A DNA stretch of 64,000 nucleotides from Cryptosporangium aurantiacum. GTDB taxonomy: Bacteria > Actinomycetota > Actinomycetes > Mycobacteriales > Cryptosporangiaceae. The stretch covers positions 1,240,001 through 1,304,000 of the forward strand of contig NZ_FRCS01000001.1 of the NCBI RefSeq assembly GCF_900143005.1, read 5' to 3'. How positions within the stretch are numbered: position 1 is the stretch's first letter; every line of letters starts with the position of its first letter. This document shows, piece by piece, positions 7,539 through 29,022 of the stretch. The notes under the pieces are model-generated. The model was given only the letters and a program-made list of their open reading frames with translations. It ran no database searches and had not been told where the DNA came from. Made by a program: the position numbers and the translations under genes.

Positions 7539-7561
7539 CCGGAACAAATGTTAGGTTCCGG
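7539..7561. promoter_or_regulatory. operator site A: CCGGAAC-N9-GTTCCGG
   Basis: A perfect 7-bp inverted repeat with a 9-base spacer lies 28 bases before the TTG start of the dehydrogenase operon. Its 18-bp core GGAACAAATGTTAGGTTC (7541-7558) recurs exactly, on the other strand, at 27152-27169, and with two mismatches at 29005-29022. An exact 18-mer recurring in promoters 20 kb apart is very unlikely by chance, so it is read as a shared operator, most likely for a TetR-type dimer. Its position close to the translation start suggests repression. Confidence 0.8.
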
Positions 7562-7588
7562 CCATCCGTACTCGAAGAGGAGTGCAGA

Positions 7589-8587
7589 TTGACGTCGACT
7601 ACGGAAGTACCGATCGATACCGAACTGGCCCGGCGCCTGTACTCCACGATGACGCTGGCGCAGGCCGTCGACGCCCGGTTGCGCAAGGGCATCGGGCGGG
7701 GCGAGTTCTTCGCAGTGATCTGGCCGTCTCGCGGGCAGGAGGCGGTCGCCGCCGGGGTCGGTGCGGCGCTGCGCCGTGACGACCGGCTGGTCACGACCTA
7801 CCGCGGCATCCACGACCTGGTGGGCAAGGGCGTGCCGCTCACCGAGATCCTCGGGGAGATCCTCGGCAAGAGCATCGGCGCGTCCAAGGGCAAGGGCGGG
7901 ACGATGCACATCACCGCGCCCGAGCAGGGCGTCGCGCTGACCACCGGCATCGTCGGCGCCGGCGTACCGGTTGCCGTGGGGCTGGCGCTGGCCGCGAAGC
8001 AGCAGGGCAGCGACCGGGTCGCGGTGGTCAACTTCGGCGACGGCGCGACGAACACCGGCTCGTTCCACGAGGGCATGAACCTCGCCTCGACCTGGCAGCT
8101 GCCGGTCGTCTTCGTCTGCCAGAACAACCTCTGGGCGGAGATGACGCCGGTCGGCGAGACGATGAACATCGACCAGGTCGTCGACCGGCGCCTGGCGTAC
8201 GCGATGGCCGGTGAGCGCGTCGACGGCAACGACCCCGAGGCCGTGCACCGCGCGGTCACCGCGGCGGTCGAGCGCGCCCGCACCGGCGGCGGACCGACGT
8301 TCATCGAGGCGGTCACGTTCCGCTTCGAGGGCCACTACTTCGGCGACCAGCAGAAGTACATGCCTACCGACGAACTGCAGGCGGCCAAGGACGCGGACCC
8401 GATCCCGCGCTACCGGCAGCGGTTGATCGACGCCGGGTTGCTGTCGGACAGCGACCTCACCGCGATCGAGCAGGACGCCACCGCGCAGGTCGACGCCGCG
8501 CTCGCCGAGGTCCTCGCGGCGCAGGCCCCCGACCTGGCCGAACTCGACCAGGACGTCTTCGTGAACATGGAGGGCATCCCCTCGTGA
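7589..8587 (+). CDS. thiamine-diphosphate dehydrogenase E1 alpha subunit (acetoin/pyruvate dehydrogenase type)
   Basis: The 332-residue product is the alpha subunit of a heterotetrameric 2-oxoacid or acetoin dehydrogenase E1. It has the ThDP-binding motif GDG (150-152) through NN (179-180), the YRGIHDLVGKG region and the GGTMHITAP segment that resembles AcoA and PdhA. E1 decarboxylates or cleaves its substrate and transfers the acyl group to a lipoyl domain. The start is the TTG at 7589, which has GAGGAG six bases upstream and gives a protein of normal length; no in-frame ATG fits. The stop overlaps the GTG of the beta gene. The substrate could be acetoin, pyruvate or another short 2-oxoacid produced by ring cleavage; sequence alone does not decide. 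Confidence 0.9.
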   Translation: MTSTTEVPIDTELARRLYSTMTLAQAVDARLRKGIGRGEFFAVIWPSRGQEAVAAGVGAALRRDDRLVTTYRGIHDLVGKGVPLTEILGEILGKSIGASKGKGGTMHITAPEQGVALTTGIVGAGVPVAVGLALAAKQQGSDRVAVVNFGDGATNTGSFHEGMNLASTWQLPVVFVCQNNLWAEMTPVGETMNIDQVVDRRLAYAMAGERVDGNDPEAVHRAVTAAVERARTGGGPTFIEAVTFRFEGHYFGDQQKYMPTDELQAAKDADPIPRYRQRLIDAGLLSDSDLTAIEQDATAQVDAALAEVLAAQAPDLAELDQDVFVNMEGIPS

Positions 8588-9600
8588 GCGCCACGACCGA
8601 AGCGCAGCCCAGTACCAAGACCCTGTCCGTGCTGAACGCGCTGAACGAGGCGCTGGACGAGGCACTGGCCGCCGACGAGCGGGTCTTCCTGCTCGGCGAG
8701 GACCTCGCCGACCCCGCCAGCGGCGTCAGCCATGTCACCAGCGGGCTGTCCACCAAGCACGGGAAGCACCGGGTCCTGGACACGCCGATCTCGGAGGCCG
8801 CGATCGCGGGTGCGGCGATCGGCGCGGCGATCGACGGCCAGCTCCCGGTCGCCGAGATCATGATCATGGACTTCATCGGCATCGCCGTGGACCAGATCGT
8901 GAACCTGGCGGCGAAGGCGCGCTTCACCTCCGCCGGCCGGACGCCGTGCCCGATCACGGTCCGGACCTCCAGCTTCGGCGGCCTGGGCTCGGGCGCCACG
9001 CACTCCCAGTCGCTCGAGGCCTGGTTCATGCACATCCCGGGCATCAAGGTCGTCGTCCCGAGCACGCCCGCGGACGCCAAGGGCCTGCTCAAGGCCGCGA
9101 TCTTCGACCCGGACCCGGTGCTGTTCGTCGAGACGAACATCCTCTACGGCAAGCGCGGCCCGGTCCCGACCGGCGACTACGTCGTCGAGCTCGGCAAGGC
9201 CGACGTCAAGCGGTCCGGTTCGGACGTCACGGTCGTCACCTACGGCCGCGGCGTGTACGACGCGCTGGACGCCGCGAAGGCCCTGGAAGACGAGGGCATC
9301 GACGTCGAGGTGCTGGACCTGCGCACGCTGGTTCCGCTCGACGTGCCCGCGGTGCTGGAGTCGGTGGGCCGCACCGGCCGGGCCGTCGTCGCGCACTACG
9401 CGGTGGAGTTCGCCGGGCCGGGTGCCGAGCTCGCGGCTCGGATCAGCACCGACCTGTTCGGCCAGTTACGGGCGCCGGTGGCCCGCGTCGGGGCACGGTT
9501 CCGGCCGATCCCGGCCGCCAAGGAGCTGGAGACCGCCGTCTACCCCAGTGCCGAGCGCATCGCATCGGCCGTTCGCGCAACCGTGGGATACGCCCGATGA
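8584..9600 (+). CDS. thiamine-diphosphate dehydrogenase E1 beta subunit (acetoin/pyruvate dehydrogenase type)
   Basis: The 338-residue product carries the transketolase pyrimidine-binding domain (LNEALDEALAADERVFLLGE near residue 18, DTPISEAAIAGAAIGAAIDG near 66) and the C-terminal transketolase domain (VLDLRTLVPLD). It pairs with the preceding alpha subunit to form E1. Length and motifs agree with AcoB/PdhB. The start is the GTG at 8584, overlapping the alpha stop by four bases (GTGA), so synthesis of both subunits is coupled. Confidence 0.9.
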   Translation: MSATTEAQPSTKTLSVLNALNEALDEALAADERVFLLGEDLADPASGVSHVTSGLSTKHGKHRVLDTPISEAAIAGAAIGAAIDGQLPVAEIMIMDFIGIAVDQIVNLAAKARFTSAGRTPCPITVRTSSFGGLGSGATHSQSLEAWFMHIPGIKVVVPSTPADAKGLLKAAIFDPDPVLFVETNILYGKRGPVPTGDYVVELGKADVKRSGSDVTVVTYGRGVYDALDAAKALEDEGIDVEVLDLRTLVPLDVPAVLESVGRTGRAVVAHYAVEFAGPGAELAARISTDLFGQLRAPVARVGARFRPIPAAKELETAVYPSAERIASAVRATVGYAR

Positions 9601-9842
9601 CTCAGAAGGTTCCCGTCCAGGTCCCGAAGCTCACGATGGCCACGACGGAGGTGACCTTCCTGGAGTGGCTCGTCGAGGACGGGCAGACCGTCGAGGAGGA
9701 GCAACCGCTGTACGTCGTCGCCACCGACAAGGTGGAGAACGAGGTCGCCGCACCGGCGTCCGGCATCCTCCGGCACGGCACCGCCGAGCCGGAGGAGGTC
9801 TACCCGGTCGGAACCGAGATCGCCACCATCGAGGTCGCGTGA
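9597..9842 (+). CDS. free-standing lipoyl domain protein (81 aa)
   Basis: The whole product is a single lipoyl/biotinyl attachment domain: VPVQVPKLTMATTEVTFLEW at the start and ATDKVENEV with the modifiable Lys near residue 44. In normal complexes this domain is the N-terminus of E2 and is followed by a subunit-binding domain and a catalytic domain in the same polypeptide. Here it ends after 81 residues and is translated separately (ATGA overlap with E1 beta, GTGA overlap with E3). It should carry the acyl group between E1, the separate E2 catalytic protein at 11202 and E3. A biotin carrier is less likely, because the MKM-type motif is absent and the neighbours are dehydrogenase genes. Confidence 0.88.
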   Translation: MTQKVPVQVPKLTMATTEVTFLEWLVEDGQTVEEEQPLYVVATDKVENEVAAPASGILRHGTAEPEEVYPVGTEIATIEVA

Positions 9843-11194
9843 GTTCCTCGGATCTGGTCGTGCTCGGCGGCGGATCCGGGGGCTACGCCGCAGCCCTCCG
9901 CGCCGCCGAGCTGGGTCGGACGGTCACGCTCGTCGAGAAGGACAAGGTCGGGGGCACCTGCCTGCACCGCGGGTGCATCCCGACCAAGGCGCTGCTGCAC
10001 GCCGGTGAGGTCGCGGACGCCACCCGCGGCGCCGCCGGCGTGGGCATCCGTGCCACGTTCGACGGCGTCGACGCGGCCGGCGTCCAGAAATACACGGACG
10101 CGGTGATCGCCAAGAACTGGAAGGGCCTGCAGGGCCTGATCGCCGCTCGCGGCATCACGGTGGTGTCGGGGGAGGGGCTTCTGGTCGCCCCGGACACGGT
10201 GCGGGTCGGCGACGAGGAGTACCGCGGTTCGGCGATCGTGCTCGCCACCGGCTCGTCGCCGGTGGTGCCGCCGGGGATCACCGTGGACGGCCGAGCCGTG
10301 CTCACGTCCGAGGACGCGCTGGCGCTGGACGTCGTGCCCGGTTCGGCGATCGTGCTGGGCGGGGGCGTGATCGGCTGCGAGTTCGCGTCCGCGTGGACGT
10401 CGCTGGGCGCGTCGGTGACGATCGTCGAGGCGTTGCCGCGGCTGCTGCCGAGCGAGGACGAGGCGAGCTCGAAGCTGCTGGAGCGGGCGTTCCGGCGGCG
10501 GAAGATCGGTCTGCGGCTGGGGTCGCGGGCGGCCGAGGTGGAGCGGATCGCTGACGGCGTCCGCGTGACCCTGGACGACGGTTCCACGTTAGAGGCAGAC
10601 CTGCTCCTGGTGGCCGTCGGGCGGCGGGCGAACACTCAAGGCCTGCCGGTCGACATCCGGGACGGCCACGTCGTCGTCGACGAGTACTGCCGTACGTCGG
10701 TGCCCGGGGTGTACGCCGTCGGCGACCTGCTGAACACGCCGCAGCTGGCCCACGCCGGGTTCGCCGAGGGGATCCTGGCCGCGGAACACCTCGCCGGGCT
10801 CGCCGTCGAACCGATCGACTACGCCGGCGTACCACGCGTCACCTACAGCTCGCCGGAGGTCGCGTCGGTCGGGCTGACCGAGGCACAAGCGGTCGACCGG
10901 TACGGCGCGGACGCCGTCCGCACCGTCACCTACGACCTCACTGGGAACGGGCGATCGGCGATCCTCGGCACCCGCGGTGCGGTGAAGCTCGTGGCGACCG
11001 GCGATCGTGTCGTCGGTACCCACCTGGTCGGCGACCGGGTGAGCGAGCTGATCGCGGAGGCCCAGGTGCTGTACGCGCTGCAGCCGTCGGCATCGACGGT
11101 CGCCGGGCTGATCCATCCGCATCCCACGCAGTCCGAGGCCATCGGCGAGGCGCACCTGCTGCTGGCCGGGAAGCCGCTCCACGTTCACGGATAG
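9839..11194 (+). CDS. lpdA: dihydrolipoyl dehydrogenase (E3)
   Basis: The 451-residue flavoprotein has an N-terminal FAD site (LGGGSGGYAAALRAAELG, residues 9-26), the redox-active disulfide CLHRGC (Cys41, Cys46), a second nucleotide site GGGVIGCEF near residue 180 and the C-terminal dimer-interface base HPHPTQSE. It reoxidises dihydrolipoyl groups with NAD+. The GTG start at 9839 overlaps the stop of the lipoyl-domain gene. Its position inside the operon shows it is dedicated to this complex. Confidence 0.93.
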   Translation: MSSSDLVVLGGGSGGYAAALRAAELGRTVTLVEKDKVGGTCLHRGCIPTKALLHAGEVADATRGAAGVGIRATFDGVDAAGVQKYTDAVIAKNWKGLQGLIAARGITVVSGEGLLVAPDTVRVGDEEYRGSAIVLATGSSPVVPPGITVDGRAVLTSEDALALDVVPGSAIVLGGGVIGCEFASAWTSLGASVTIVEALPRLLPSEDEASSKLLERAFRRRKIGLRLGSRAAEVERIADGVRVTLDDGSTLEADLLLVAVGRRANTQGLPVDIRDGHVVVDEYCRTSVPGVYAVGDLLNTPQLAHAGFAEGILAAEHLAGLAVEPIDYAGVPRVTYSSPEVASVGLTEAQAVDRYGADAVRTVTYDLTGNGRSAILGTRGAVKLVATGDRVVGTHLVGDRVSELIAEAQVLYALQPSASTVAGLIHPHPTQSEAIGEAHLLLAGKPLHVHG

Positions 11195-11201
11195 GGTCTT
11201 C

Positions 11202-11936
11202 ATGACACAGGTACAGGCTCCTCATCGGGAGCGGATGACCCGGATGCGCCGGATCATCGCGAGCCGGATGGTCGAGTCGCTGCAGACGTCCGCGCAGCTC
11301 ACGTCCGTGGTCGAAGTGGACGTGAGCGCGGTCGCCGAGCAGCGGCGCAGGCACAAGGACGCGTTCCGGGCGCAGCACGGCGTCGGACTGTCGTATCTGC
11401 CGTACTTCGCGCTGGCGACCGTGCAGGCGCTGGCCGAGCACCCGATCGTCAATGCCTCGGTGATCGCGGAGACCAACGAGATCGAGTACCACCCCGCTGC
11501 ACACCTCGGGATCGCGGTCGACACCGACCGCGGCCTGATGGTGCCGGTGATCCACGACGCCGGGGACCTCGACCTGGCCGGGCTCGCGGTCGCGATCGAC
11601 GACGTGGCGGCCCGGACCAGGGAGAACAAGCTCCGGCCGGACGAGGGCAGCGGCGGCACGTTCACGATCACGAACACCGGGAGCCGGGGCGCGCTGTTCG
11701 ACACCCCGATCATCAACGCGCCGCAGTCCGCGATCCTCGGCACCGGCGCGGTCGTACGCCGCCCGGTCGCGCTGCTCGACGGCGAGGGCGCGGAGTGGGT
11801 GGCGATCCGGTCGATGGTGTACCTGGCGCTCTCCTACGACCACCGGATCGTCGATGGCGCCGACGCCGCGCGGTTCTTGACCGACGTCAGGCGTCGCCTG
11901 GAAGACCCGCAGTGGGCAGACGAGGTGACGCGATGA
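11202..11936 (+). CDS. 2-oxoacid dehydrogenase acyltransferase (E2) catalytic domain without lipoyl or binding domain
   Basis: The 244-residue product begins directly at the catalytic core (RMRRIIASRMVES, residues 14-26) and ends shortly after the active-site motif DHRIVDG (213-219, catalytic His214). The thiol-ester transfer domain is therefore complete, but both the lipoyl domain and the roughly 40-residue peripheral-subunit-binding domain normally found upstream are missing. The lipoyl function is supplied by the separate 81-residue protein. How E1 and E3 are held on the E2 core is unclear. It is preceded by a seven-base gap after E3 and followed by an ATGA overlap. Confidence 0.9.
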   Translation: MTQVQAPHRERMTRMRRIIASRMVESLQTSAQLTSVVEVDVSAVAEQRRRHKDAFRAQHGVGLSYLPYFALATVQALAEHPIVNASVIAETNEIEYHPAAHLGIAVDTDRGLMVPVIHDAGDLDLAGLAVAIDDVAARTRENKLRPDEGSGGTFTITNTGSRGALFDTPIINAPQSAILGTGAVVRRPVALLDGEGAEWVAIRSMVYLALSYDHRIVDGADAARFLTDVRRRLEDPQWADEVTR

Positions 11937-12139
11937 CCGGCTACATCGGCAGTTCGGTGCGGGAGATCGAGGCGACGCCGGACGCGGTGCTGACCGCGGG
12001 CCTGCTGGACCGGCTGAAGGACCTGGACGCGACCCGGATCAACAAGGACGACCAGATCGTGCTCCGGAAAGCGGTGCTCGGGCTGCTCGCGATCGTGGCT
12101 GAGCTGGAGGCCCGGATCGTCGAGCTCGAAGCGCGCTGA
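11933..12139 (+). CDS. small protein (68 aa) with C-terminal coiled coil, in the dehydrogenase operon
   Basis: I do not recognise a family. The product is acidic, with an amphipathic C-terminus (LLAIVAELEARIVELEAR) in which Leu/Ile/Val recur at heptad spacing, suggesting a short coiled coil. The start overlaps the E2 stop (ATGA), and the gene ends exactly where the convergent IclR gene ends. Because the E2 protein lacks a subunit-binding domain, this peptide is a candidate adaptor that tethers subunits, but that is inference from position and shape only. Confidence 0.72.
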   Translation: MTGYIGSSVREIEATPDAVLTAGLLDRLKDLDATRINKDDQIVLRKAVLGLLAIVAELEARIVELEAR

Positions 12140-12865
12140 TCAGAACCTTCCCTGCGCGACCCGGGCGGCCTCCACGCGGATCTCGGCCGCGACCCGATCG
12201 AGTTCGTCGGTGATCCGGGCGCTCGGGCCGGCGACGGCCAGGCACGCCACGACCCGTCCCTGGACGAGGATCGGGCTCGCGGCCGCCGACACGTCCGGCA
12301 CGGTCTCGCCGCGGTTGACCGCGTAACCCTGCTCCCGCACCCGGTCGAGCTCCTCCACGATCAGCGGACGCCGGGCCGCCTCGACGTGCTCGGCGAGGTA
12401 CGCGTCGCGCCGGCGCGGGGAGAAGTGCGCGAGGAAGCACTTGCCGGAGCTGGTCGGGTACAGCGGCCGGCGGCGGTGCAGCGGCGCGGAGTACTTGATC
12501 AGTTGGCCGGACTCGACCATCTCCACATAGACGACCGCGTCGCCCACCAGCCGGCAGAGGATCGCGGTCTCGTCGAGGGACCGCTGGAGGTTCTCCAGCG
12601 CGCGCCGGGCGGACAGCGTGAACTCCGCGCGCGCCGGGCGGACCAGGACGTCCAGCGCCGGCCCCAGCCGGTAGACGCCCGCCTGCTCCTCCAGGTAACC
12701 GGTGGCGACCAGACCCTTCACCAGGCCGTGCACCGAGGACTTCGGCGCGCCCAGCAGCGAGGCCAGCCCGGCGAGCCGGACGCCGTCCCGGCTCTGCCCG
12801 GCCGCCTCGAGGATCGTCGTCACCCGGCTGACCGTCCGGTGTTCGCGCGCCAGGGCGTCCGACAT
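12140..12865 (-). CDS. IclR-family transcriptional regulator
   Basis: The 241-residue product has an N-terminal winged helix (RTVSRVTTILEAAGQS through SLLGAPKSSVHGLVKGLVAT) and a C-terminal IclR effector domain (YPTSSGKCFLAH, EQGYAVNRGE, VACLAVAGPSARI). The ATG at 12865 has a strong GGGAGGAG seven bases upstream. It is divergent from the acyl-CoA synthetase gene, with the shared 146-base region holding a promoter and the GAACGCCAGTTC palindrome. The likely role is control of the synthetase and of the MaoC-type gene at 14589, whose promoter carries the same palindrome. The effector is unknown, probably an aromatic acid or CoA ester. Confidence 0.92.
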   Translation of the reverse strand: MSDALAREHRTVSRVTTILEAAGQSRDGVRLAGLASLLGAPKSSVHGLVKGLVATGYLEEQAGVYRLGPALDVLVRPARAEFTLSARRALENLQRSLDETAILCRLVGDAVVYVEMVESGQLIKYSAPLHRRRPLYPTSSGKCFLAHFSPRRRDAYLAEHVEAARRPLIVEELDRVREQGYAVNRGETVPDVSAAASPILVQGRVVACLAVAGPSARITDELDRVAAEIRVEAARVAQGRF

Positions 12866-12940
12866 CGTTGCTCCTCCCACCACGTCCGTGGCCCCACCGC
12901 GTGTCCGGGACCATTGTGCGCCCCGCGGAATCGCGACCCG

Positions 12941-12969
12941 TTGACAGGCCTTCCGGGGCCTCTTACGTT
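12941..12969 (+). promoter_or_regulatory. sigma70-type promoter of the acyl-CoA synthetase gene
   Basis: TTGACA (12941-12946) is followed after 17 bases by TACGTT (12964-12969), a good vegetative -35/-10 pair for a high-GC actinobacterium. Transcription would start near 12976, directly at the GAACGCCAGTTC palindrome, so a bound regulator would block initiation. Confidence 0.65.
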
Positions 12970-12978
12970 GGCATAAGC

Positions 12979-12990: not shown

Positions 12991-13011
12991 CGATATACGG
13001 ACGGAGCATAG

Positions 13012-19118: not shown

Positions 19119-20418
19119 CGGCTGGGGCGAGGGCTCCGCGGAGGACTGTGGCGCGGGCGTGTGTGAACACACCCCGCGTCGTGGTCCGTCCGACGACGCT
19201 GGGCGGCACCCAGATCAGGTCGCGCACGCACGGCGTCACATCGTCCAGCGACACGTCCTGCCCCGGAATGTGGGCCGTCCGGATCTCGTCGCCGTCGAAC
19301 CCGGCAGCGACGATGTCCCGGATGATCAGCGTGCGTTCCTTCAGCGAGTCCGACAGCGTGTTCGTCTCCGGCGGGTACGACCGGAACCAGGCCTGCTGGA
19401 TCTCGAACTCCTCGCTGAACCGCTCCCGGGCGTTGACGTTGAGCCACGTCAACGCGTCCAGCTTCTCGATCGCGGTCGCGGGTGCCGCGGCCACGGCCTC
19501 GTAGCCGCTGGAGAGCCGCGTGTAGAACGCGTTCATGATCGACGCGAGGAGCGCCTCTTTGCCCTCGACCAGCCGGTAGACGGTGCCGGTGCCCATCCCC
19601 GCAGCCGCCGCGATATCGCGGATCGTGGTCGCCTCGTAACCGCGGCGCGCGAACTCGGCGCGGGCCACCGCGCGGAGCCCGGCCCGTCGCTCGTCGAAGT
19701 CGTCGTCCCGGGTCGCGGACCACTGCGCGATCGTCGCCGAGGCGGCGCCCATCGCGGCCGAGCGGTTCAGAGCCCGGTCGGCGGGCGGACGCTTCGCGAC
19801 GCCGTACAGCACCATCGAGCAGAGCAGCGTCGCGGTGCGCGCCGGCGAGCCGTCCTTGTGCAGCCGGCCCAGCCCGACGTGCAACATCGTCTCGACGAGC
19901 TGGTGGGTGAGCAGCGTCGGGTCGACGCGCTCGACCAGGTCACCGCGGGCCGCGGCGTCGTCCAGGATGCGCTGCATCGCGGCGGTGACCGCCTCCGGCT
20001 TGCGGCGCGCGAGTCCCATCAGGTCGGGTGACGCGCCGGCGTGCGGCTCGTAGGCGGCGAGGTGCAGCGCGGCACCGTGGCGGACCGCGCACTCGGCGAT
20101 CGCGATGCCCAGCGCGACGACCCGGTCGGACGTCGGCGCGTCCGGCCCGGGCGGCGGGTCGTTCGCCCAGCGGCTGCCGATCTCGTCCAGCTCCGTGTAG
20201 TAGCGCTCGAGGAGCTCGGTCGCGATCGCCTGCTTGGAGTCGAAGTGGTGGTACAGGCTGCCCGGCAGGATCCCGCACGCGTCCGCGACGTCCTTCAGCG
20301 ACGTGCGTGTATACCCGGACGCTGCGAACAGGCCCGAGGCGATCTGCAGGATCTCGGAGCGGCGGGCGCCGTCCAGGGACGGAGGACCGGCCGCCACCGA
20401 CCCGCGTGGTCGTGTCAC
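19111..20418 (-). CDS. tandem TetR-family regulator (two complete TetR units in one chain)
   Basis: The product of about 435 residues contains two TetR DNA-binding domains, each with its own ligand-type helical domain. Helix-turn-helix 1 spans about 39-60 (TSLKDVADACGILPGSLYHHF) and helix-turn-helix 2 about 264-285 (TTIRDIAAAAGMGTGTVYRL). Ordinary TetR proteins have one and act as dimers, so this chain may bind as a pseudo-dimer with non-identical half-site preferences. The GTG at 20418 gives a usual N-terminus; another GTG at 20472, one base after the NRAMP stop, would add 18 residues. It is the last gene of the NuoF-like/ferredoxin/NRAMP operon and lies tail-to-tail with the monooxygenase gene. 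Confidence 0.85.
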   Translation of the reverse strand: MTRPRGSVAAGPPSLDGARRSEILQIASGLFAASGYTRTSLKDVADACGILPGSLYHHFDSKQAIATELLERYYTELDEIGSRWANDPPPGPDAPTSDRVVALGIAIAECAVRHGAALHLAAYEPHAGASPDLMGLARRKPEAVTAAMQRILDDAAARGDLVERVDPTLLTHQLVETMLHVGLGRLHKDGSPARTATLLCSMVLYGVAKRPPADRALNRSAAMGAASATIAQWSATRDDDFDERRAGLRAVARAEFARRGYEATTIRDIAAAAGMGTGTVYRLVEGKEALLASIMNAFYTRLSSGYEAVAAAPATAIEKLDALTWLNVNARERFSEEFEIQQAWFRSYPPETNTLSDSLKERTLIIRDIVAAGFDGDEIRTAHIPGQDVSLDDVTPCVRDLIWVPPSVVGRTTTRGVFTHARATVLRGALAPAAR

Positions 20419-21709: not shown

Positions 21710-21906
21710 TCCGAGGGCAGCTCGATGATCGCGTGCACCGGGCAGTCCAGCAGCGCCCGGCGTACGTCGTCCTCGTCGTGAGGTTGTACGGCGCCGGTGC
21801 CGGTCAACGACGCGTAACCCCAGTCGTCGAGCGAGAAGTGCTCGGGCGCGTGTTTGGCGCAGATCCCGAAGCCGTCGCAGAGCGTGCGGTCGAGCTTGAT
21901 CCTCAC
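21706..21906 (-). CDS. small [3Fe-4S]-type ferredoxin (66 aa)
   Basis: The 66-residue acidic protein has Cys10, Cys16 and Cys55 (CDGFGIC and the later CPVHAI), the three-cysteine pattern of single-cluster [3Fe-4S] ferredoxins that serve actinobacterial cytochrome P450s. The position of the usual second Cys in CxxCxxC is Gly/Phe, so a fourth ligand is absent. The GTG at 21906 overlaps the stop of the NuoF-like gene (GTGA). The probable path is NADH to the NuoF-like flavoprotein, then this ferredoxin, then an oxygenase such as the P450 at 39861 or a Rieske protein. The partner is inferred. Confidence 0.88.
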   Translation of the reverse strand: MRIKLDRTLCDGFGICAKHAPEHFSLDDWGYASLTGTGAVQPHDEDDVRRALLDCPVHAIIELPSE

Positions 21907-23168
21907 GGCAGCCTCACTTCGAACGGTCGATCAGCGCGGTAGGGGTCTCCGGCGCACCGGTCGCACCCGCCGTGAAGGTGCTGGTCGACTTCCGACGGAA
22001 ACTCCCGTAGCAGCGACGCGGCGACGTTCGTGGCGCCGTCGAGCGTGCCGCAGGCGCCCCGGCCGCGTAACACGACCGACCAGCGGGTCAACCGGTCGAG
22101 GTCGGCCTGCTCGGCGCGGAAGTCCCGGAGCGCTGCGGCCACCGCGCTCATCGCCGCGGTGCCGTTGAAACACGACCCGCACTGCCCGGCGTTCTCGCGG
22201 TCGAAGTACGCCATCACCGAGGCGACCACCGCGACCGGGCAGTCGTCGGTGCCGATTAGCGCGATCGCGCCGCACCCCAGGCCGGTGTCGAACCGGCGGG
22301 CGGTCTCGTGGTCGAGCGTCAGGTCGAGGACGCGCCGGTTGACGGCACCGGCGAAGTACCCACCCAGCAACGCTCCGTGGACGTCGTCCGGGTCGACGCC
22401 GTGCCGTTCGAGCAGCTCGGCGAACGGCATCCCGTGCGGGAGCTCGTAGAGCACGGGAGCCCGGCCGCCGCCGCTGATCGTCGCGAGGAACGTGCCGGGT
22501 GAGGCCGGCGTGCCCTGGCTGCGGAACGCGTCGGCTCCGTGCCGCGCGAGGTACGCCAGGCTCGCGAGCGTCTCGACGTTGCTCACCAGCGTCGGCCGGC
22601 CGCCGACCCCGGATTCGTACGGGCGCGGGGGCTTGTCGGTCGGCAACGCCCGGCCACCGTTCAGCGCCTGGACCGCGGCGGTCTCCTCGCCGGCGACGTA
22701 GGCGGGAGCGACCTCGACGACGTTGCCGCCGGCCTCGCGTACCGCCTCCGCCGCTACCGGGTCGGAGACATACACGTGCGTGGTGTCCGCGCCCACCGCG
22801 TGGGCGGCGAGGCGCAGTCCGTCCAGGACGAGGTGCGGGCGGTACCGCAGGAGCCAGCGGTCCTTGATCGACATCGGCTCGCCCTCTTCGCCGTTCGCGA
22901 CGACGACCGGCCGGACGCCCGCCCGGCACGCCTCCCGGACCGAGCGGAGCTTGACGCCGAGCGGGAACGCCGCGCCGCCGCGCCCGAGGAGACCGGACCG
23001 GTCGGCCTCGTCGAGCAACACCGCCGGGTCGGGGAGCGGGCCGTAACTACCGGCGGCCCGGTACGCGTCGGCGTCCTCGGGGCCGTCCGTGGCGCGCAGC
23101 AGGCGGGCGTCCGCCGGTGGTGCGGCGATCCGTACCGCCGGTGCCGGCGTCAGCAGCGTTTTATCCAT
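21903..23168 (-). CDS. NuoF-like NADH:ferredoxin oxidoreductase
   Basis: The 421-residue product resembles the NADH/FMN-binding 51-kDa subunit of complex I. It has GRGGAAFP (62-69) and GEEGEP (93-98) for FMN/NADH, the SLBB region, and a C-terminal iron-sulfur part with Cys330, Cys333 (CGSC) and Cys373. The usual CGxCxPC is shortened, so the third clustered cysteine is missing; two extra cysteines (402, 405) near the C-terminus might compensate. No other complex I gene is present. Paired with the ferredoxin gene it is most likely a stand-alone ferredoxin reductase for oxygenases. The ATG at 23168 has GAGG five bases upstream. Confidence 0.82.
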   Translation of the reverse strand: MDKTLLTPAPAVRIAAPPADARLLRATDGPEDADAYRAAGSYGPLPDPAVLLDEADRSGLLGRGGAAFPLGVKLRSVREACRAGVRPVVVANGEEGEPMSIKDRWLLRYRPHLVLDGLRLAAHAVGADTTHVYVSDPVAAEAVREAGGNVVEVAPAYVAGEETAAVQALNGGRALPTDKPPRPYESGVGGRPTLVSNVETLASLAYLARHGADAFRSQGTPASPGTFLATISGGGRAPVLYELPHGMPFAELLERHGVDPDDVHGALLGGYFAGAVNRRVLDLTLDHETARRFDTGLGCGAIALIGTDDCPVAVVASVMAYFDRENAGQCGSCFNGTAAMSAVAAALRDFRAEQADLDRLTRWSVVLRGRGACGTLDGATNVAASLLREFPSEVDQHLHGGCDRCAGDPYRADRPFEVRLP

Positions 23169-23214
23169 GTGGTCCTCGGTATTTACTCGAGCGAATTGCG
23201 GATACGATCTCGGC

Positions 23215-23679
23215 ATGAGAACTGCGGTGGTCCGGATCAACGTCGACCCGCGAGGCGAACTCGCCGTACCGGCGTTGCGGGAGCGAATGGAAATACTCGC
23301 CGCGGACGCCGCGGGTGCGGGTTTTCAATTGGTCCGGAGCGACGTCGATCCGAATCGGCCGGAATTACAATTCTTGATGGCGGGCGACGATGCGGCGGCG
23401 CTGCGCGAGACCGCCGCCGCGCTGTGCGCGCGGGCGTTCGGCGTCGAACCCGCCGCCGGTGCCGTGACGTACCTGAGCCGCGGCACCGACGACGACGCGC
23501 TCGGCGTGCTCGCCGGTTTCGGGCTGACCGGTCAGGTCAGCCGAACCCCGGGCGACGACGGGTGGGACGTCGTCGAGGTCCGGCTGGCCAAGGCCGACCT
23601 GGCGCGGATTCCGGAGAGCCGGATCCACACCGCGCTGGAAGCCGCGCTCAACGCCGAGGTGCGGCTCACTCTCTACTGA
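23215..23679 (+). CDS. hypothetical protein (154 aa), divergent from the NuoF-like gene
   Basis: I do not recognise a family. The product is a soluble, acidic protein with no signal peptide or membrane segment. It appears to contain two similar alternating alpha/beta halves (TAVVRINVDPRGEL at the start, DVVEVRLAKADLARIPESRIH near residue 125). The ATG at 23215 is 46 bases from the divergent NuoF-like start, so both promoters must share this short A+T-richer gap. It overlaps the end of the alpha/beta hydrolase gene by 14 bases. Codon use matches its neighbours, and the frame is longer than the antisense noise here, so I take it as real. Confidence 0.7.
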   Translation: MRTAVVRINVDPRGELAVPALRERMEILAADAAGAGFQLVRSDVDPNRPELQFLMAGDDAAALRETAAALCARAFGVEPAAGAVTYLSRGTDDDALGVLAGFGLTGQVSRTPGDDGWDVVEVRLAKADLARIPESRIHTALEAALNAEVRLTLY

Positions 23680-24529
23680 GGAACTCAAGGATGGCGGGGG
23701 CGGCCTGCACCCAGGTGTCGAACATGTTGTAGCGATCGACCCGGCCGGCCGCCCGGTCCTCGGTCGCCCGCTCCCAGGCGTCCTCCGGCCACGGTGGGTC
23801 GATCAGCTCGCTGTCCTTGATCAGGCAGCTGACCTCGAGCGACGTCCGCTTGGGGTGGTGCCAGTCGTCCTTGCCGCCACGGATGATCAGCGTCGGGACC
23901 CGGATGTTCACGAAGTCGAGGTCTTCGACGCCGGGGATCGTCTGACCCGGCTTCGACACGTACGCGTCGAGCCAGCGCAGCATCAGCTGCAGGAAGTCGT
24001 CCTTCTTCAGCGCGCGCAGCCGGGCCTCGTTCGCCGGGTTCGCCTTGATCAGCGCCTGCCACTCCGGCAGGTCGAACAGCCCGTCGATGCCCTTCGCCAT
24101 GACCGCCTGGATGGACGGGACCACGTAGTAGGCGCCGAGGCTGAACGAGCCGAACACGCCGCCGACGATGTTCCAGACGACGAGCTTCGTGGCCAGCTCC
24201 GGGTAGAGCATCACGGTCAGCATCGAATCCCGCGCACCGCCCGACCCGCCGGCGATGACGCAGGGCCCCTCGCCGAGCTCGGTCAGCAGGGTCTTCAATG
24301 TCTCCGCGCGCATGTGCGATTCGGAGCGGCCGTAGAACTGCACGTCCGACGCGCCACAATTCGGCCGGTCCCAGAGCAGGACGCGTTTGCCGCCCTCGAC
24401 CAAGGCCTCGGCGAGCGGCCGTAATCCTTCGATGTCCTTGCTGAATCGTCCACCGGGCGTGAGCACGATGAGCTCATCCGGGGAATTGCCGAGAATCTCG
24501 TAGACGACGTTCCCGCCGTTGATTTCCAT
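23666..24529 (-). CDS. alpha/beta hydrolase-fold protein
   Basis: The 287-residue product has the alpha/beta hydrolase layout: an oxyanion region PGGRFSKDIEGLRPLAEAL, an LLWDRPNCGAS strand, a nucleophile elbow GGSGG near residue 98, an acid in LIIRGGKDDW and a C-terminal His candidate (DDWHHP). Such enzymes cleave esters, lactones or C-C bonds of ring-fission products. It is the last gene of an operon starting with two amidohydrolases and a Rieske ferredoxin. The ATG at 24529 is chosen for GAGGGG four bases upstream; an ATG at 24541, overlapping the preceding stop (ATGA), would add four residues. Confidence 0.85.
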   Translation of the reverse strand: MEINGGNVVYEILGNSPDELIVLTPGGRFSKDIEGLRPLAEALVEGGKRVLLWDRPNCGASDVQFYGRSESHMRAETLKTLLTELGEGPCVIAGGSGGARDSMLTVMLYPELATKLVVWNIVGGVFGSFSLGAYYVVPSIQAVMAKGIDGLFDLPEWQALIKANPANEARLRALKKDDFLQLMLRWLDAYVSKPGQTIPGVEDLDFVNIRVPTLIIRGGKDDWHHPKRTSLEVSCLIKDSELIDPPWPEDAWERATEDRAAGRVDRYNMFDTWVQAAPAILEFLSRE

Positions 24530-24537
24530 GGGTCCCC

Positions 24538-24924
24538 TCATGCCGTCACGAGAACGTCATTGCCGACCACCCGCACGGGGTAAGTGCGGATGCTCCATTC
24601 CGGCTTCACCGCGGTGGTGCCGGTGGCGAGTTCGAAGCCCCACTGGTGCCACGGGCAGTAGATGTACTCCAGGTCGCGCACCATCACCGCGTCGCCGGGC
24701 ACGTTCTCGTCCACGACCGTGCGGCCGCGCGCCCGGCCCTTGCAGAGCGGTCCGCCCTCGTGCGGGCAGTAGTTCGCGATCGCGTAGAACGTGCCGTTGA
24801 CGTTGTAGACGCCGACGCCGTGCCGCCCGATCGGTACCACCTTGAAGCTGCCCGGCGGAATCTCGTCCAGCGTCGCCACGACGTGTTCCCGCCCCTGCGC
24901 GAGTCGCGGAGCGTCACCAGACAC
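24538..24924 (-). CDS. Rieske-type ferredoxin (128 aa)
   Basis: The 128-residue product is a single Rieske [2Fe-2S] domain with Cys53/His55 (CPHEGG) and Cys90/His93 (CPWHQW). It lacks a signal or membrane helix, so it is a cytosolic electron carrier or small assisting subunit of a Rieske oxygenase. The stretch of 34 residues between the two ligand pairs is longer than in classical ferredoxins and resembles the isolated Rieske proteins encoded beside amidohydrolase genes. The GTG at 24924 overlaps the end of the upstream amidohydrolase by 11 bases. A likely partner is the oxygenase at 27533, whose promoter has the same operator. Confidence 0.88.
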   Translation of the reverse strand: MSGDAPRLAQGREHVVATLDEIPPGSFKVVPIGRHGVGVYNVNGTFYAIANYCPHEGGPLCKGRARGRTVVDENVPGDAVMVRDLEYIYCPWHQWGFELATGTTAVKPEWSIRTYPVRVVGNDVLVTA

Positions 24925-26050
24925 GGGTTTGGCTTTCGACCGCGGGGACCGTGGTCGGCAGTTTGTAGGTCTCGATGCCGTTCTTGAACATCACGGCCTC
25001 GCGCGCGTGCTCCGGCAGGTGCTTGAGCAGCCACTTCGGGTCGTCGAAGGTCCAGTGCGGATAGTCGGAGGAGAACAGCAGGATCTTCTCCGCCTCCATC
25101 CACTCCAGCGCCCGGGACAGCTCGGTCTTGTCCTCCGGGTAGTCCAGCGGCTGGGTGGTGAACTTGATGTGGTCCTTGACGTAGTCGGACGGCTTCCGCT
25201 TGATCGTCATCCACGACTTGCGGGCCGCGTAGATCGCGTCCATCCGCCACATCAGCGGCAGGATCCAGGTGAACGCGTGCTCGACCAGGACGATCCGCAA
25301 GCTCGGGAACCGGTCGAAGACGCCGTCGAAGATCAGGCTCATGACCTGGTTCGCGGCCAGCAGCGAGTACGTGACCATGAAGTCGTGGTTGTAGCTGGGG
25401 AACCCGACCGGCGGCATCGGCATCGTCTCGTAGTTGCCGCGGGAGAGGTGGCAGCTGACCGTGATGTCGTGCTTGGTCGCCGCGGCCCAGACCGGGTCGT
25501 ACAGCGGGTTGCCCCAGGACGGCCGGGGCTCGGCCTTGATCAGGATCTGCGCCATGTGGGGGTGGCCTGCCCACTTCTCGATCTCGGCGACCGCGCCCTG
25601 CGGGTCCTCGATCGACACGCAGATCGAGCCACGCCAGCGCTGGTGCCAGTTGTTCCGGCTGTCGAGCCAGTGGTTGGCCAGCCACTCGTTCGTCGCGGTG
25701 CACATCGCGGAGGAGGCTTCCGGGATCCGGGTGAACTTCGAGGACGGCTCGAGGACCGCGATGTCCGAGCCGGCTTCGATGATCAGCTGCTTGAACATCA
25801 TGTCCGGGTCGCTGCCCGGGAAGCCGCCGTCGGTCGGGAACGCGTCGACCCGCATCGCGAACGCGTGCGCGTAGTCCGGGGCGTCGTAGTTGATCGTGTC
25901 GCCGACCTTGTGCGACAGCAGGAACTTGCGCCACTTCTCCGGGATGTACTCCGCGACGACCCCCGGGCGGGGCACCGGGTGGACGTCCGAGTCGACGACG
26001 CGCACCGGTACCTCGGCGGTGGCCGGGACGCGCTCTTTTGCCTGTGTCAC
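24914..26050 (-). CDS. amidohydrolase-2 family metal-dependent hydrolase or decarboxylase
   Basis: The 378-residue product has the N-terminal metal motif VVDSDVHP (about 15-22) and the C-terminal metal aspartate motif FSSDYPHW near residue 325, the pattern of the amidohydrolase-2 family (gamma-resorcylate and aminocarboxymuconate semialdehyde decarboxylases and C-C hydrolases). These use one divalent metal in a TIM barrel. The GTG at 26050 overlaps the stop of the next amidohydrolase gene by four bases. It retains the metal aspartate that its neighbour has lost, so the two may form a complex. The reaction is unknown. Confidence 0.85.
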   Translation of the reverse strand: MTQAKERVPATAEVPVRVVDSDVHPVPRPGVVAEYIPEKWRKFLLSHKVGDTINYDAPDYAHAFAMRVDAFPTDGGFPGSDPDMMFKQLIIEAGSDIAVLEPSSKFTRIPEASSAMCTATNEWLANHWLDSRNNWHQRWRGSICVSIEDPQGAVAEIEKWAGHPHMAQILIKAEPRPSWGNPLYDPVWAAATKHDITVSCHLSRGNYETMPMPPVGFPSYNHDFMVTYSLLAANQVMSLIFDGVFDRFPSLRIVLVEHAFTWILPLMWRMDAIYAARKSWMTIKRKPSDYVKDHIKFTTQPLDYPEDKTELSRALEWMEAEKILLFSSDYPHWTFDDPKWLLKHLPEHAREAVMFKNGIETYKLPTTVPAVESQTRVW

Positions 26051-27126
26051 GGCGTCACTCCTTCGGGGACGGAGATTCCGTACAGGTCGGCGGCGTTGCG
26101 CCAGAGGATGCGGTCGCGCTGCTCCGCGCTGAGCGCGCTCGGCAGGGAATCCACCGTGCTGTGCTGCCAGTGCGGGTAGCTCGACCCGTACAGGACCTTC
26201 TCGTCCTTCTCGGTGAACGACAGCCACTCGCCGGCGAACTCCACGTCACCGGGACCGTCGAGGCTGCCCTGGACGAAGTACACGTGGCCGGGCAGGTAGT
26301 CGCTGGGCATCCGGGGCGCCCACGGTGTCTGCTCCAGGTGCGGGCGGCCGAACGTGTCCATCCGCCAGATGAACGGCGTGAGGAGGTCGGCGGCACCGTC
26401 GGCCCAGACCACCTTCAACGCGTCGAAGCGCTCGAACACGCCCTCCGCGATCATGTTCATCAGGTGGTAGAGGTAATTGAGCGCCATGAAGCCCAGGTAC
26501 TGCTCGTACGTCTGCGGGTGGCCGGACGGGGTGGGCGGGTACCCGATGCCCTGACCGGCCTCGATGTGCACGGCCACCGGCAGGCCTGCGGCCGCGGCCG
26601 CCTCCCAGAGCGGCCAGAACTGTGGTTTCCCGTAGAGCTCGCGCGACTGCAGCGGGACGCCGATCTGGACGACCTGCGGGTGATCGCCGTAGCGCTCGAT
26701 CTCGCGTAACGCGCCGGGGATGTCTTCCGGGTTGACGCGGATCGCGCCCCGGTACCGCGGATCGTGGTCGAGCCAGCGGCTCACCAGCATCTGGTTGTGC
26801 GCCGCCAGCACCGCCGTGGTCAGGTGCCGGTCGGGGAGCGTGCCGCGGGACATCGGGTGCAGCACCGCGACGTCGACGCCGCCCTCGTCGAACAGGTGGG
26901 CGCCGACGATCTCCGGGTCGGAGCCGGGGTACTGGCCGTCGGGGCCGTGGGCAGCGGCCACGTACTCGCCGCCGGGTGCGCCGTACCAGTCCATCTCGTA
27001 GTCGGGGATGCCCCGGCTCGCGTACGGCTCCCGGAGGAAGCTCCGGAAGTCCCGGTTGTCCCGGAAGAACACGTGGACGCTCGCGTCGATCAGCGGCGTC
27101 GTCACGCCGTCGCGGTGCACCCTCAC
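26047..27126 (-). CDS. amidohydrolase-2 family protein lacking the conserved metal aspartate
   Basis: The 359-residue product aligns by eye with the adjacent amidohydrolase throughout (PGSDPEIVGAHLFDEGGVDV, FERFDALKVVWADG, then YGSSYPHWQH). However, the position of the metal-binding Asp in SDYPHW is Ser (SSYPHW), and the N-terminal motif is IDASVHVF rather than DSDVH. It may be a non-catalytic partner of the following gene or bind metal differently. The GTG at 27126 has GGAGGG six bases upstream. Operator site B lies 26-43 bases upstream of the start. It begins a four-gene operon that runs to 23666. Confidence 0.83.
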   Translation of the reverse strand: MRVHRDGVTTPLIDASVHVFFRDNRDFRSFLREPYASRGIPDYEMDWYGAPGGEYVAAAHGPDGQYPGSDPEIVGAHLFDEGGVDVAVLHPMSRGTLPDRHLTTAVLAAHNQMLVSRWLDHDPRYRGAIRVNPEDIPGALREIERYGDHPQVVQIGVPLQSRELYGKPQFWPLWEAAAAAGLPVAVHIEAGQGIGYPPTPSGHPQTYEQYLGFMALNYLYHLMNMIAEGVFERFDALKVVWADGAADLLTPFIWRMDTFGRPHLEQTPWAPRMPSDYLPGHVYFVQGSLDGPGDVEFAGEWLSFTEKDEKVLYGSSYPHWQHSTVDSLPSALSAEQRDRILWRNAADLYGISVPEGVTP

Positions 27127-27151
27127 GGGCGGCCCTCCTTCGTCTGTGGCC

Positions 27152-27169
27152 GAACCTAACATTTGTTCC
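27152..27169. promoter_or_regulatory. operator site B, exact copy of site A
   Basis: On the minus strand this reads GGAACAAATGTTAGGTTC, identical over 18 bases to site A at 7541. It lies 26 bases upstream of the amidohydrolase start, the same geometry as site A. It ties the amidohydrolase/Rieske ferredoxin/hydrolase operon to the dehydrogenase operon. Confidence 0.8.
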
Positions 27170-27185
27170 GGCTGGTCAGGGGTCA

Positions 27186-27206
27186 CCCCGCACCGACGGT
27201 GCGGGG
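27186..27206 (-). terminator. hairpin after the [2Fe-2S] ferredoxin gene
   Basis: CCCCGCACC (27186-27194) and GGTGCGGGG (27198-27206) form a 9-bp perfect stem with a 3-base loop, extended by GGTC/GACC on the outside after one mismatch. It begins six bases after the ferredoxin stop and ends the Rieske/ferredoxin transcript before the amidohydrolase promoter. Confidence 0.72.
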
Positions 27207-27211
27207 CGACC

Positions 27212-27529
27212 TCAGCCCGGGGGCGGCTGGACGCCTTTTTTCTCCAGGACGACGCCTGCGCCCTTGATCTGCAGACGACAGGCGAGGCGAACCAGCGGGC
27301 TGCGCAGCCGGCGGGGGAGCCGGGTACGCATCTCGAACAGCTCGTCGTCACCGGGCGGCACGGTCTGGAGTTCCCCGTCGATCACCTTGACGAAGCAGAC
27401 CATGCACTCCGCCTGGCCGAAACACTTCGTCGGCCAGGTGACGTCCTGCCGCCAGGCGGCCTCGGCGACGGACTCCTTCGGCCCGACGTCGAACTCGACC
27501 CCGGACGGTTCGACCCGCACCGTCGCCAT
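27212..27529 (-). CDS. [2Fe-2S] ferredoxin, adrenodoxin-like spacing (105 aa)
   Basis: The 105-residue product has Cys36, Cys42, Cys45 and Cys84 (C-x5-C-x2-C-x38-C), close to the adrenodoxin/putidaredoxin spacing rather than the plant type. It should carry single electrons to the Rieske oxygenase encoded immediately upstream, three bases away. The C-terminus (GVVLEKKGVQPPPG) is shorter and more basic than in P450 ferredoxins. A reductase is not encoded beside it; the NuoF-like flavoprotein at 21903 is one candidate. Confidence 0.87.
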   Translation of the reverse strand: MATVRVEPSGVEFDVGPKESVAEAAWRQDVTWPTKCFGQAECMVCFVKVIDGELQTVPPGDDELFEMRTRLPRRLRSPLVRLACRLQIKGAGVVLEKKGVQPPPG

Positions 27530-27532
27530 GTA

Positions 27533-28942
27533 CTACTCGACCCGGCTCGCGATGACCCGGTCGAGCTCCTCGTGCATGTTGCTGATCGACAGCTCGTACT
27601 GGCTGGACAACCGGCTCTCGGTGAACCCGGGGGAGTGCAGCCCCCGCTGCTGACGCTCGATGTTGCTGAAGTCCTGCCGCGGGATCAGGCCCCAGTTCTC
27701 GGTGTCGTCCTTGTCGAAGATGCCCTTCAACTCGGCCCGCTCCGGCTCCTGCCCGACCGGGTACGTGGTCAGCGACCAGACGTCGAAGATGCACCACTCC
27801 GGGTCGTCCTTGTACGGCCGCGACCGGTACGCGAGGCAGTTCCCGTACATCGGCAGCATCAGGTAGTTCGGGAACATGAAGATGTCGCCGCCCCAGAGCT
27901 GCATCGCCGGGCCCATCGGCGCCATCGGGATGCCCGCGCCCTCGGCGTACTCGTAGAGGGCCATGATCGCCTTCATCGAGAACTGCGGGTCGTCCTGGGG
28001 GACCTTGTTGCGCAGCCCCTCGAAGATCCGGACGTCCTGTTCGAGCGTCATCGCGTCCTGGCCGGTGGCGAGCAACCGGCCGGCCTCGATGAACTCCTCC
28101 GAGTCGAACACCGGCTCGTACTCGGAGTCGCCCTTGCTCGCGCTCTGGAACCGGGCGTGGCCGTTCTTGAACGTGGTGTAGGCGACCTGCGCGGCCTTGC
28201 GCTCGCCGTACTCCTCGTCGTTGCCCATCAGCAGCTGCGGGTGGGTCTGGGTGACGTGGTAGCCCTCGAAGAACGCTTCCTGGGCCATCTTCCAGTTCGC
28301 GTTGAGGACGACCTGCTTCCACCACTTGACCCGCATGTTGCCGATGCCGAGCGGTTCGAGCAGCTTCGCGACCGGCGACAGGTGCTCGAGCAGCGGCGGC
28401 GCGCCGAGGTCCATGTTGATCCAGACCAGGCCGCACCAGGTCTCGACCAGGCACTCGCGCAGCGCGAGGTCGTCCTTGTTCAGGCAGGCTGGCTCGAACG
28501 CCTTCTCGCCGAACACGAACGACGACGAGCCGTCGAGGTTCCACCGCCAGCCGTGGAACGGGCAGACCAGCTGGCCGCCGGGGAGCCGCCCCTGGCCCTT
28601 TACGAGCTCGGTGGCGCGGTGGCGGCAGGCGTTGTGCAGCGCTTTGATCGAGCCGTCGCGCTGCCGGACGATGAGGATCGACGTGCTGGCGATCTCGTAC
28701 TCGACGTAGTCGCCGGGGTTCGGGATCTCCTCCTCACGAGCGGCCATCAGCCAGCTGTGCGGCCAGAGGTACTTCTTCTCCAGCTCGAAGATCTCGCGGG
28801 AGTAGTACCGCTCCTTCGGCACGAAGCGCGAGTCGCGCATCGCGTGCGGCACCTTGGCCTGGATCTCCGGCGGGTTGGCGCCGAGCGGCGCGTCGTCGCC
28901 CTCGGCCCAGGTGAACTTCGGGTTGAGATCAGCGACAGTCAT
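27533..28942 (-). CDS. Rieske non-heme iron oxygenase, alpha subunit
   Basis: The 469-residue product has Rieske ligands Cys106/His108 (CRHRA) and Cys127/His130 (CPFHGW), then a catalytic domain with the iron motif EGYHVTQTHP (two His) near residue 230. The ATG at 28942 has GAAGGG eight bases upstream. Operator site C lies 63-80 bases before it. The gene is cotranscribed with the [2Fe-2S] ferredoxin and ends at a hairpin. It probably starts the ring oxidation whose products are handled by the amidohydrolase operon under the same operator. Substrate unknown. Confidence 0.9.
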   Translation of the reverse strand: MTVADLNPKFTWAEGDDAPLGANPPEIQAKVPHAMRDSRFVPKERYYSREIFELEKKYLWPHSWLMAAREEEIPNPGDYVEYEIASTSILIVRQRDGSIKALHNACRHRATELVKGQGRLPGGQLVCPFHGWRWNLDGSSSFVFGEKAFEPACLNKDDLALRECLVETWCGLVWINMDLGAPPLLEHLSPVAKLLEPLGIGNMRVKWWKQVVLNANWKMAQEAFFEGYHVTQTHPQLLMGNDEEYGERKAAQVAYTTFKNGHARFQSASKGDSEYEPVFDSEEFIEAGRLLATGQDAMTLEQDVRIFEGLRNKVPQDDPQFSMKAIMALYEYAEGAGIPMAPMGPAMQLWGGDIFMFPNYLMLPMYGNCLAYRSRPYKDDPEWCIFDVWSLTTYPVGQEPERAELKGIFDKDDTENWGLIPRQDFSNIERQQRGLHSPGFTESRLSSQYELSISNMHEELDRVIASRVE

Positions 28943-29004
28943 GAAAGAGCCCTTCGACGTCAGTGTCGGTCGCGAAGAGAGAAGTGGGGGAGCGCTACGG
29001 GCTC

Positions 29005-29022
29005 GAACCAAACACTTGTTCC
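29005..29022. promoter_or_regulatory. operator site C, two mismatches from sites A and B
   Basis: On the minus strand this reads GGAACAAGTGTTTGGTTC, matching 16 of 18 bases of sites A and B. It is the third member of the set and lies in the promoter region of the Rieske oxygenase/ferredoxin operon. Confidence 0.75.

Follow-up and report, generated by a model that had tools for sequence, protein, structure and literature searches.

A tandem TetR protein as the probable single-chain repressor of three operons that share an 18-bp site in Cryptosporangium aurantiacum

The three sites and their operons

The DNA considered here is a stretch of 64,000 nucleotides from Cryptosporangium aurantiacum (contig NZ_FRCS01000001.1, positions 1,240,001 to 1,304,000), referred to as the window, whose own numbering is used throughout. 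It contains three copies of an 18-bp sequence, each predicted to be an operator, and the gene of a TetR protein with two TetR units in one chain, the tandem TetR, which sits between the operons that follow these copies. Predicted operator A (GGAACAAATGTTAGGTTC, 7541–7558) lies on the plus strand, and predicted operators B (GGAACAAATGTTAGGTTC, 27152–27169) and C (GGAACAAGTGTTTGGTTC, 29005–29022) lie on the minus strand. Sites A and B are identical letter for letter across the 18 bp and site C differs by two letters; the respective scores with the position weight matrix (PWM) described below are 25.6, 28.4 and 24.2. Each site is oriented along the transcription of its own operon. By the calls of our own gene caller, site A ends 30 nt ahead of the TTG start of an E1-alpha gene at 7589, site B 25 nt ahead of the start of an amidohydrolase gene at 27126, and site C 62 nt ahead of the ATG of a Rieske oxygenase gene at 28942. 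An earlier reading of the window from its letters alone (the sequence-only reading) had placed the 18-mer at these three positions, each in the promoter of an operon, and both statements hold, with the copies 25–62 nt upstream of the first genes.

The three sites are the only matches to the 18-mer in the window at up to three mismatches, where 100 dinucleotide shuffles gave an expectation of 0.02 and none of the 100 reached three matches. The scan of the whole genome at two mismatches that the sequence-only reading had proposed returned no further close matches: sites A–C are the sole ones in 9.58 Mb. Two further matches appear at three mismatches, and the reversed control pattern has one match at up to three. 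A chance repeat as the origin of the 18-mers is ruled out by the window shuffles together with the genome-wide scan.

The operons were assigned from Pfam matches and gene calls. Operon A (7589–11936, plus strand) encodes a 2-oxoacid dehydrogenase complex with a split E2: E1-alpha (7589–8587) and E1-beta (8584–9600) are followed by a stand-alone lipoyl domain of 81 residues (9597–9842), E3 (9860–11194) and a catalytic E2 domain devoid of the lipoyl part (11235–11936). Operon B (23666–27126, minus strand) encodes, in the order of transcription, two amidohydrolases (26047–27126 and 24914–26050), a Rieske ferredoxin (24538–24879, or to 24924) and an alpha/beta hydrolase (23666–24529). Operon C (27212–28942, minus strand) encodes the alpha subunit of a Rieske oxygenase (27533–28942) and a 2Fe-2S ferredoxin (27212–27529). 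No curated family names the substrate of the pathway: in NCBIfam, the Rieske oxygenase matched no family at a score above the cut-off, and neither of the two amidohydrolases matched one at E ≤ 1e-8. Relatives of the Rieske oxygenase, with 36–45% identity, occur on five plasmids.

The genus was represented by the window's own genome and by genomes G001, G002 and G003. G002 and G003 carry three sites each, with 0–1 mismatch, in the same three promoters as the window, and G001 has neither the motif nor a match to the tandem TetR at E ≤ 1e-60. Within this sample the motif is therefore present in 3/3 genomes with the tandem TetR and in 0/1 without it, and the conservation that the sequence-only reading had suggested looking for is found in two of the three relatives. 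At promoters A and B of G002 and G003 the site forms an island of identity amid diverged flanks. Site C is less informative because its flanks are conserved along with it. The region fetched from G003 retains the tandem TetR, a single TetR encoded in the window at 29829–30491, the three sites, and operons B and C. In its operon A only E1-alpha, E1-beta and the lipoyl domain remain, neither an E2 core nor an E3 adjoining them, and the IclR, the acyl-CoA ligase, the second Rieske oxygenase with FMO, and the Nramp protein were not found in it. A further, weaker PWM match (18.0) lies in this region at 353636. The first genes of all three operons and the regulator are retained together in three genomes of the genus.

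The sequence-only reading described site A as CCGGAAC-N9-GTTCCGG, a typical dimer site. This 23-bp form is present at 7539–7561; however, it is lacking at sites B and C and also at site A of G002 and of G003, and the label of a typical dimer site gives way to that of a quasi-palindrome with fixed asymmetry, as detailed below. The perfect 23-bp palindrome is ruled out as the operator, the window having that form at site A only. Judged from the sequence, the conserved site is the inner 16–18 bp, an imperfect palindrome. The letters that flank it could contribute something, since site A of G002 has a GCGGAA-N12-TTCCGC extension in a register that differs from that of the window. Inspection by eye located a possible −10 element 3–4 nt ahead of operators A (TAGCGT) and C (TACAGT), with TTGCGG/TTGCGT 17–18 nt farther up; a strict sigma-70-type promoter scan of the three operon promoters gave no match.

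The tandem TetR and its pairing with the site

The gene of the tandem TetR, the candidate binder of operators A–C, occupies 19111–20397 on the minus strand, with an open reading frame start possibly up to 20472. The TetR_N domain (PF00440) matches the product in two stretches with an E-value of 6.1e-27. This helix-turn-helix (HTH) domain places the protein in the TetR family, and the two complete TetR units in one chain give it the architecture of a double TetR-family regulator (TFR). The AlphaFold2 model comprises 428 residues and is nearly all helical, with a pLDDT of 90.7 and a pTM of 0.90. The two HTHs are unlike each other, and both are more conserved (0.90 and 0.86) than the protein as a whole (mean 0.71). 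Relatives on plasmids were not found at E ≤ 1e-40. The same genome encodes a second tandem TetR, a paralogue of 39% identity on another contig (L140:10400-14300). Two weak related sites (17.2 and 16.2 bits) lie 53 bp apart at that locus, in a divergent promoter between an amidohydrolase gene and a gene with a product that, by eye, is like a substrate-binding protein.

Ten aligned tandem TetRs were used for one scan of named genomes, and the best 80 of at least 526 confirmed relatives provided the loci analysed here, chiefly from Mycobacterium and Mycolicibacterium but also from Nocardia, Frankia, Aldersonia and others. All 80 contain a tandem TetR by virtue of this selection. Genes in the relatives are the calls of our own simple gene caller. 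The window pattern at up to three mismatches has 105 sites in 62/80 loci; the reversed pattern has none, and five scrambled patterns gave 0, 0, 2, 0 and 1. A PWM, seeded with these matches and iterated, identified 310 sites, with at least one in 80/80 loci and at least two in 74/80; reversed sequence yielded three. Nearly all of the sites (306/310) lie within 300 bp ahead of a predicted gene start, 229 of them one-sided and 77 between divergent genes, and four lie elsewhere. The median distance to the start of the 229 one-sided sites is 49 bp. Intergenic DNA makes up 11.7% of the loci, and 33 of the 310 sites touch a called gene, five of them lying wholly within one. An operator pointing along transcription is ruled out, since 103 of the one-sided sites have the same orientation as the gene and 126 the opposite one. 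In 61/80 loci the regulator gene itself also has a site in the 300 bp upstream of it, which suggests, at the level of sequence, autoregulation in those loci.

The pairing of regulator and site is kept while most of the surrounding enzymes change. Orthologues of operon B directly follow the tandem TetR gene in two Nocardia loci (L060 and L063), with a site between them of 36.3 and 34.8 bits, respectively, and in genome G086 the site that accompanies a related amidohydrolase is weak (16.9). The link between operon B and the regulator thus extends beyond the genus, and membership by site varies. A NuoF-like flavoprotein gene (21903–23168, minus strand) lies between operon B and the regulator in the window; it has no site of its own, and is linked by association only. 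It accompanies Rieske genes and the regulator in 5/80 loci (L060, L063, L091, L099 and L109; 63–66% identity), and may be the reductase of the Rieske system. The mycobacterial regulon (L076:759-12172 and similar loci) is unusual in its content: it comprises an AveC-like protein, a substrate-binding-like protein, a CbbQ/NorQ-type AAA ATPase, a VWA protein, short-chain dehydrogenases/reductases, two acyl-CoA dehydrogenases and a nitroreductase. Most of its transcription units are preceded by a site.

Co-occurrence of motif and protein was assessed in a sample of 397 genomes of the order, with a protein threshold of E ≤ 1e-60 and the exact pattern GAACARATRTTWGGTY, chosen from sites in the 80 loci. 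The tandem TetR is present in 34 of the genomes, the pattern in 32 and the reversed control in none. Both occur in 31, the protein alone in three (G086, G094 and G186), the motif alone in one (G123) and neither in 362 (Fisher p = 1.4e-41). Because genomes of the same genus are not independent, the test was repeated inside the mycobacterial genus, where the motif is found in 28/30 genomes with the protein and in 0/11 without it (p = 2.5e-8). The three genomes with the protein alone have differently spelled PWM sites beside the gene, the best of which score 27.9, 20.8 and 29.3 bits, respectively. In G086, two divergent tandem TetRs are encoded at a distance of about 2.5 kb (L142:13428-14645 and L142:9683-10903), and variant sites near them read GAGCAA instead of GAACAA; this may be a natural example of a regulator and its operator having drifted together. 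All 58 pattern matches in protein-bearing genomes lie on the contig of the regulator, 57 of them within 25 kb of its best copy and the 58th 2 kb from a second tandem TetR copy. These results strongly support the tandem TetR as the regulator, as the sequence-only reading had proposed.

A scan of the 397 genomes with the motif alone, at up to two mismatches, found matches in 39, three of which belong to the genus of the window. Seven of the 36 outside the genus, those with strong or multiple matches, were fetched, and all seven carry a tandem TetR homologue of 42–47% identity surrounded by enzymes mostly different from those of the window.

Asymmetry of the operator and comparison with Mce3R and KstR2

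TetR repressors are typically homodimers that bind palindromes. The operator consensus derived from the 80 loci, GAACARAT-ATTWGGTY, consists of two half-sites spaced by about one helical turn, GAACARAT and its counterpart RACCAAAT, read from the opposite strand. The half-sites are mostly alike; however, the letter before the invariant C is A in one (86%) and C in the other (88%). Positions 4 and 15 pair as A..G in 234 of the 310 sites and as the symmetric A..T in 34. The aligned orientation outscores the flipped one in 310/310 sites, with a median gap of 15.9 bits and a smallest gap of 0.1; the fixed letters are the better evidence of asymmetry, because the alignment itself set the orientation. 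The operator is a quasi-palindrome with fixed asymmetry, in keeping with the asymmetric operator that characterizes double TFRs, and its asymmetry may be caused by the two different heads of the protein.

The closest structural match of the tandem TetR model in the PDB, as ranked by Foldseek, is Mce3R (Rv1963c) of Mycobacterium tuberculosis (PDB accession number 9b7y), and among the 50 matches listed it is the only one that covers both halves. The predicted model, which contains no DNA, aligns with Mce3R along its full length, over 442 columns, with TM-scores of 0.62/0.69, a root-mean-square deviation of 7.8 and 18% identity. Mce3R is reported to be a double-TFR repressor with a single-chain asymmetric TetR fold, which places two non-identical HTHs on an asymmetric operator of two 25-bp nonpalindromic sites 53 bp apart and controls genes that act in cholesterol metabolism, resistance to oxidative stress and lipid transport (PMC11667970). 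The two proteins thus share a chain of two TetR units, and they differ in sequence and in target genes. The tandem TetR is ruled out as an Mce3R orthologue by the 18% identity, by profile matches confined to the HTH and the stretch that follows it, and by the single sites in the window. The same source cites a prediction of 204 putative double-TFR proteins in Actinomycetes (PMC11667970). The tandem TetR has the same architecture and is probably a member of this class.

The N-terminal half of the tandem TetR matches KstR2 (Rv3557c, PDB accession numbers 4w1u and 4w97) over about 190 residues, with a profile E-value of about 3e-21, and scores better against the uncharacterised 2ibd (4.9e-25). 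KstR2 is a TetR repressor of cholesterol catabolism genes with the operator AnCAAGnnCTTGnT, and its three motif-bearing promoter regions have sites 22–82 bp from the regulated starts (PMC3068626); it is described as a homodimer in PMC11667970. The frame AnCAAGnnCTTGnT resembles AnCARATATTWGnT of the present operator, with equal spacing of the half-sites, and the KstR2 consensus letters are matched in register at a mean of 7.1/10, compared with 4.6 in the next best register. The systems differ in that one chain here bears both heads whereas KstR2 is described as a homodimer on a palindrome, in the innermost G/C of the KstR2 site, which is A/T here, and in the letter beside each conserved C, which here is unlike between the halves (A on the left and C on the right). 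KstR2 orthology is ruled out by the two units in one chain and by the different core letters and target genes. A literature search for the KstR2 ligand residues found nothing.

Searches of the open-licence literature yielded neither the motif, sought in several spellings, nor an operator or regulon of any double TFR besides Mce3R, and the terms tandem, double and fused TetR lead there to Mce3R only.

Proposed regulation, alternatives and significance

The sites, their position in promoters, their conservation and asymmetry, the way in which they occur with the tandem TetR and are linked to it, and the fold predicted for that protein argue that the three 18-mers are the operators of one regulon repressed by the tandem TetR (19111–20397) as a single-chain pseudo-dimer, a reading to which we assign a probability of roughly 85%. 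In the proposed mechanism, one chain with two TetR units and two non-identical HTH heads would fold back on itself as a pseudo-dimer, most likely as Mce3R does. One chain would bind each of sites A–C, with each head gripping one half-site, GAACARAT or RACCAAAT. Positioned over the core promoter or just downstream of it, the bound protein would act as a roadblock at the transcription start and block transcription of the three operons. The position of the sites relative to the start codons and, at A and C, to the possible −10 elements seen by eye fits such a roadblock, and hence repression. By analogy with the TetR family, a metabolite of the pathway, plausibly an acyl-CoA or an aromatic or alicyclic acid, would release the repressor, and the three operons may serve that one pathway.

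Several observations weigh against this reading. The tests were not blind, given that both the exact pattern and the PWM were derived from sites next to genes for tandem TetRs, and the co-occurrence is dominated by one genus. The mycobacterial genomes of that test probably overlap with the 80 loci, such that the two tests are not independent. Fifteen of the 39 genomes with a loose match have no tandem TetR (24 have it), and the reversed control likewise matches 15 genomes; single loose matches are therefore often due to chance. G123 has an exact match and no detected tandem TetR. The match (L145:1690, 27.0 bits) is on a 6.2 kb contig in a genome of another family, and either the regulator may fall in an assembly gap or the match may be fortuitous. 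The regulator gene of the window has no upstream site, unlike those of 61/80 relatives. Operon B orthologues near the regulator have no site scoring at least 9 in their own promoter in four Mycolicibacterium loci (L080, L091, L099 and L101) and one Mycobacterium locus (L109), and regulon membership therefore varies. Operon A genes are found in 0/80 loci and the operon C Rieske oxygenase in two only, at 31% identity; the conservation of A and C is therefore seen within the genus only. Lastly, the identity to Mce3R is low, and its operator of 25-bp nonpalindromic sites, as described in PMC11667970, differs from the one quasi-palindromic site of 16–18 bp per operon.

It is very improbable that the sites belong to the single TetR (29829–30491) or to the IclR (12140–12865) instead. 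Both genes are part of the same cluster, and the TetR is kept in G002 and G003 and the IclR in G002. However, the IclR is missing from the fetched G003 region, where the three sites persist, and none of the 80 motif-bearing loci contains a match to it at E ≤ 1e-5; these absences rule it out as the regulator. The single TetR, which the sequence-only reading had also put forward, is not supported: in those loci it is matched once, weakly and over 87 residues (L121, E 1e-7). That reading had remarked on different sites of its own, and the short palindromes AGAACATCGTTCT, CAGAACAGCATTCTG and AGAACGTTGTTCT, found at 30475–30576 around the start of this gene and before an acyl-CoA dehydrogenase gene, are perhaps its operators. 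An origin of the 18-mers as copies of a mobile repeat, or by recent duplication of one promoter with no shared regulator, would account for the identity of sites A and B over 18 bp, but we consider it negligible: around the sites at promoters A and B of G002 and G003 the flanks have diverged, leaving each site as an island of identity, site C is kept in the same place despite its two different letters, and sites in other genera are nearly always before genes.

Granted that the tandem TetR binds the sites, it may do so as an activator, or with an effect that depends on the promoter. Some TetR proteins act as activators, and the orientation of the site relative to the gene is free. Nonetheless, the 25–62 nt in the window and the median of 49 bp elsewhere leave little space for an upstream activator site, and the possible −10 elements seen by eye just before operators A and C fit a block at the start site. 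The distances are like those from which KstR2, to which the N-terminal half is related, exerts repression (22–82 bp; PMC3068626). Activation, or an effect that differs between promoters, is thus unlikely. It is less easily set aside, though still the less probable outcome, that the regulon is real and the operons do not form one pathway, the regulator coordinating separate uses of a common inducer. The content of the regulon varies between genera while site and regulator remain constant, and operon A of G003 is reduced to E1-alpha, E1-beta and the lipoyl domain. Nevertheless, three genomes of the genus have kept the regulator and the first genes of the three operons as a set, even where other genes of the cluster are lost.

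Repression by the tandem TetR, as preferred here, would make it an Mce3R-like single-chain repressor with an operator and a regulon of its own. A double TetR on an asymmetric operator is already known from one worked case, Mce3R, no other double TetR with an established operator having been found; the subfamily described here did not turn up in the searches of the open-licence literature, and neither did its operator or its regulons. About 300 operators are predicted for it in public genomes, and it forms a second, clearly distinct subfamily. We lean towards the view that it represents a second, wider class of single-chain TetR repressors apart from Mce3R, in which an old regulator–operator pair has been plugged onto changing catabolic operons in Mycobacterium, Nocardia, Frankia and the genus of the window, with the reading heads and the asymmetric operator nearly unchanged. 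Fusion would let each half evolve its own half-site, and the fixed one-letter difference between half-sites in a KstR2-like frame may be what this loss of symmetry has left behind. Exchanging heads and half-sites would be a direct test of how an asymmetric site is read by a fused TetR, and the motif may help to predict regulons among the poorly understood degradation clusters of mycobacteria and their relatives.

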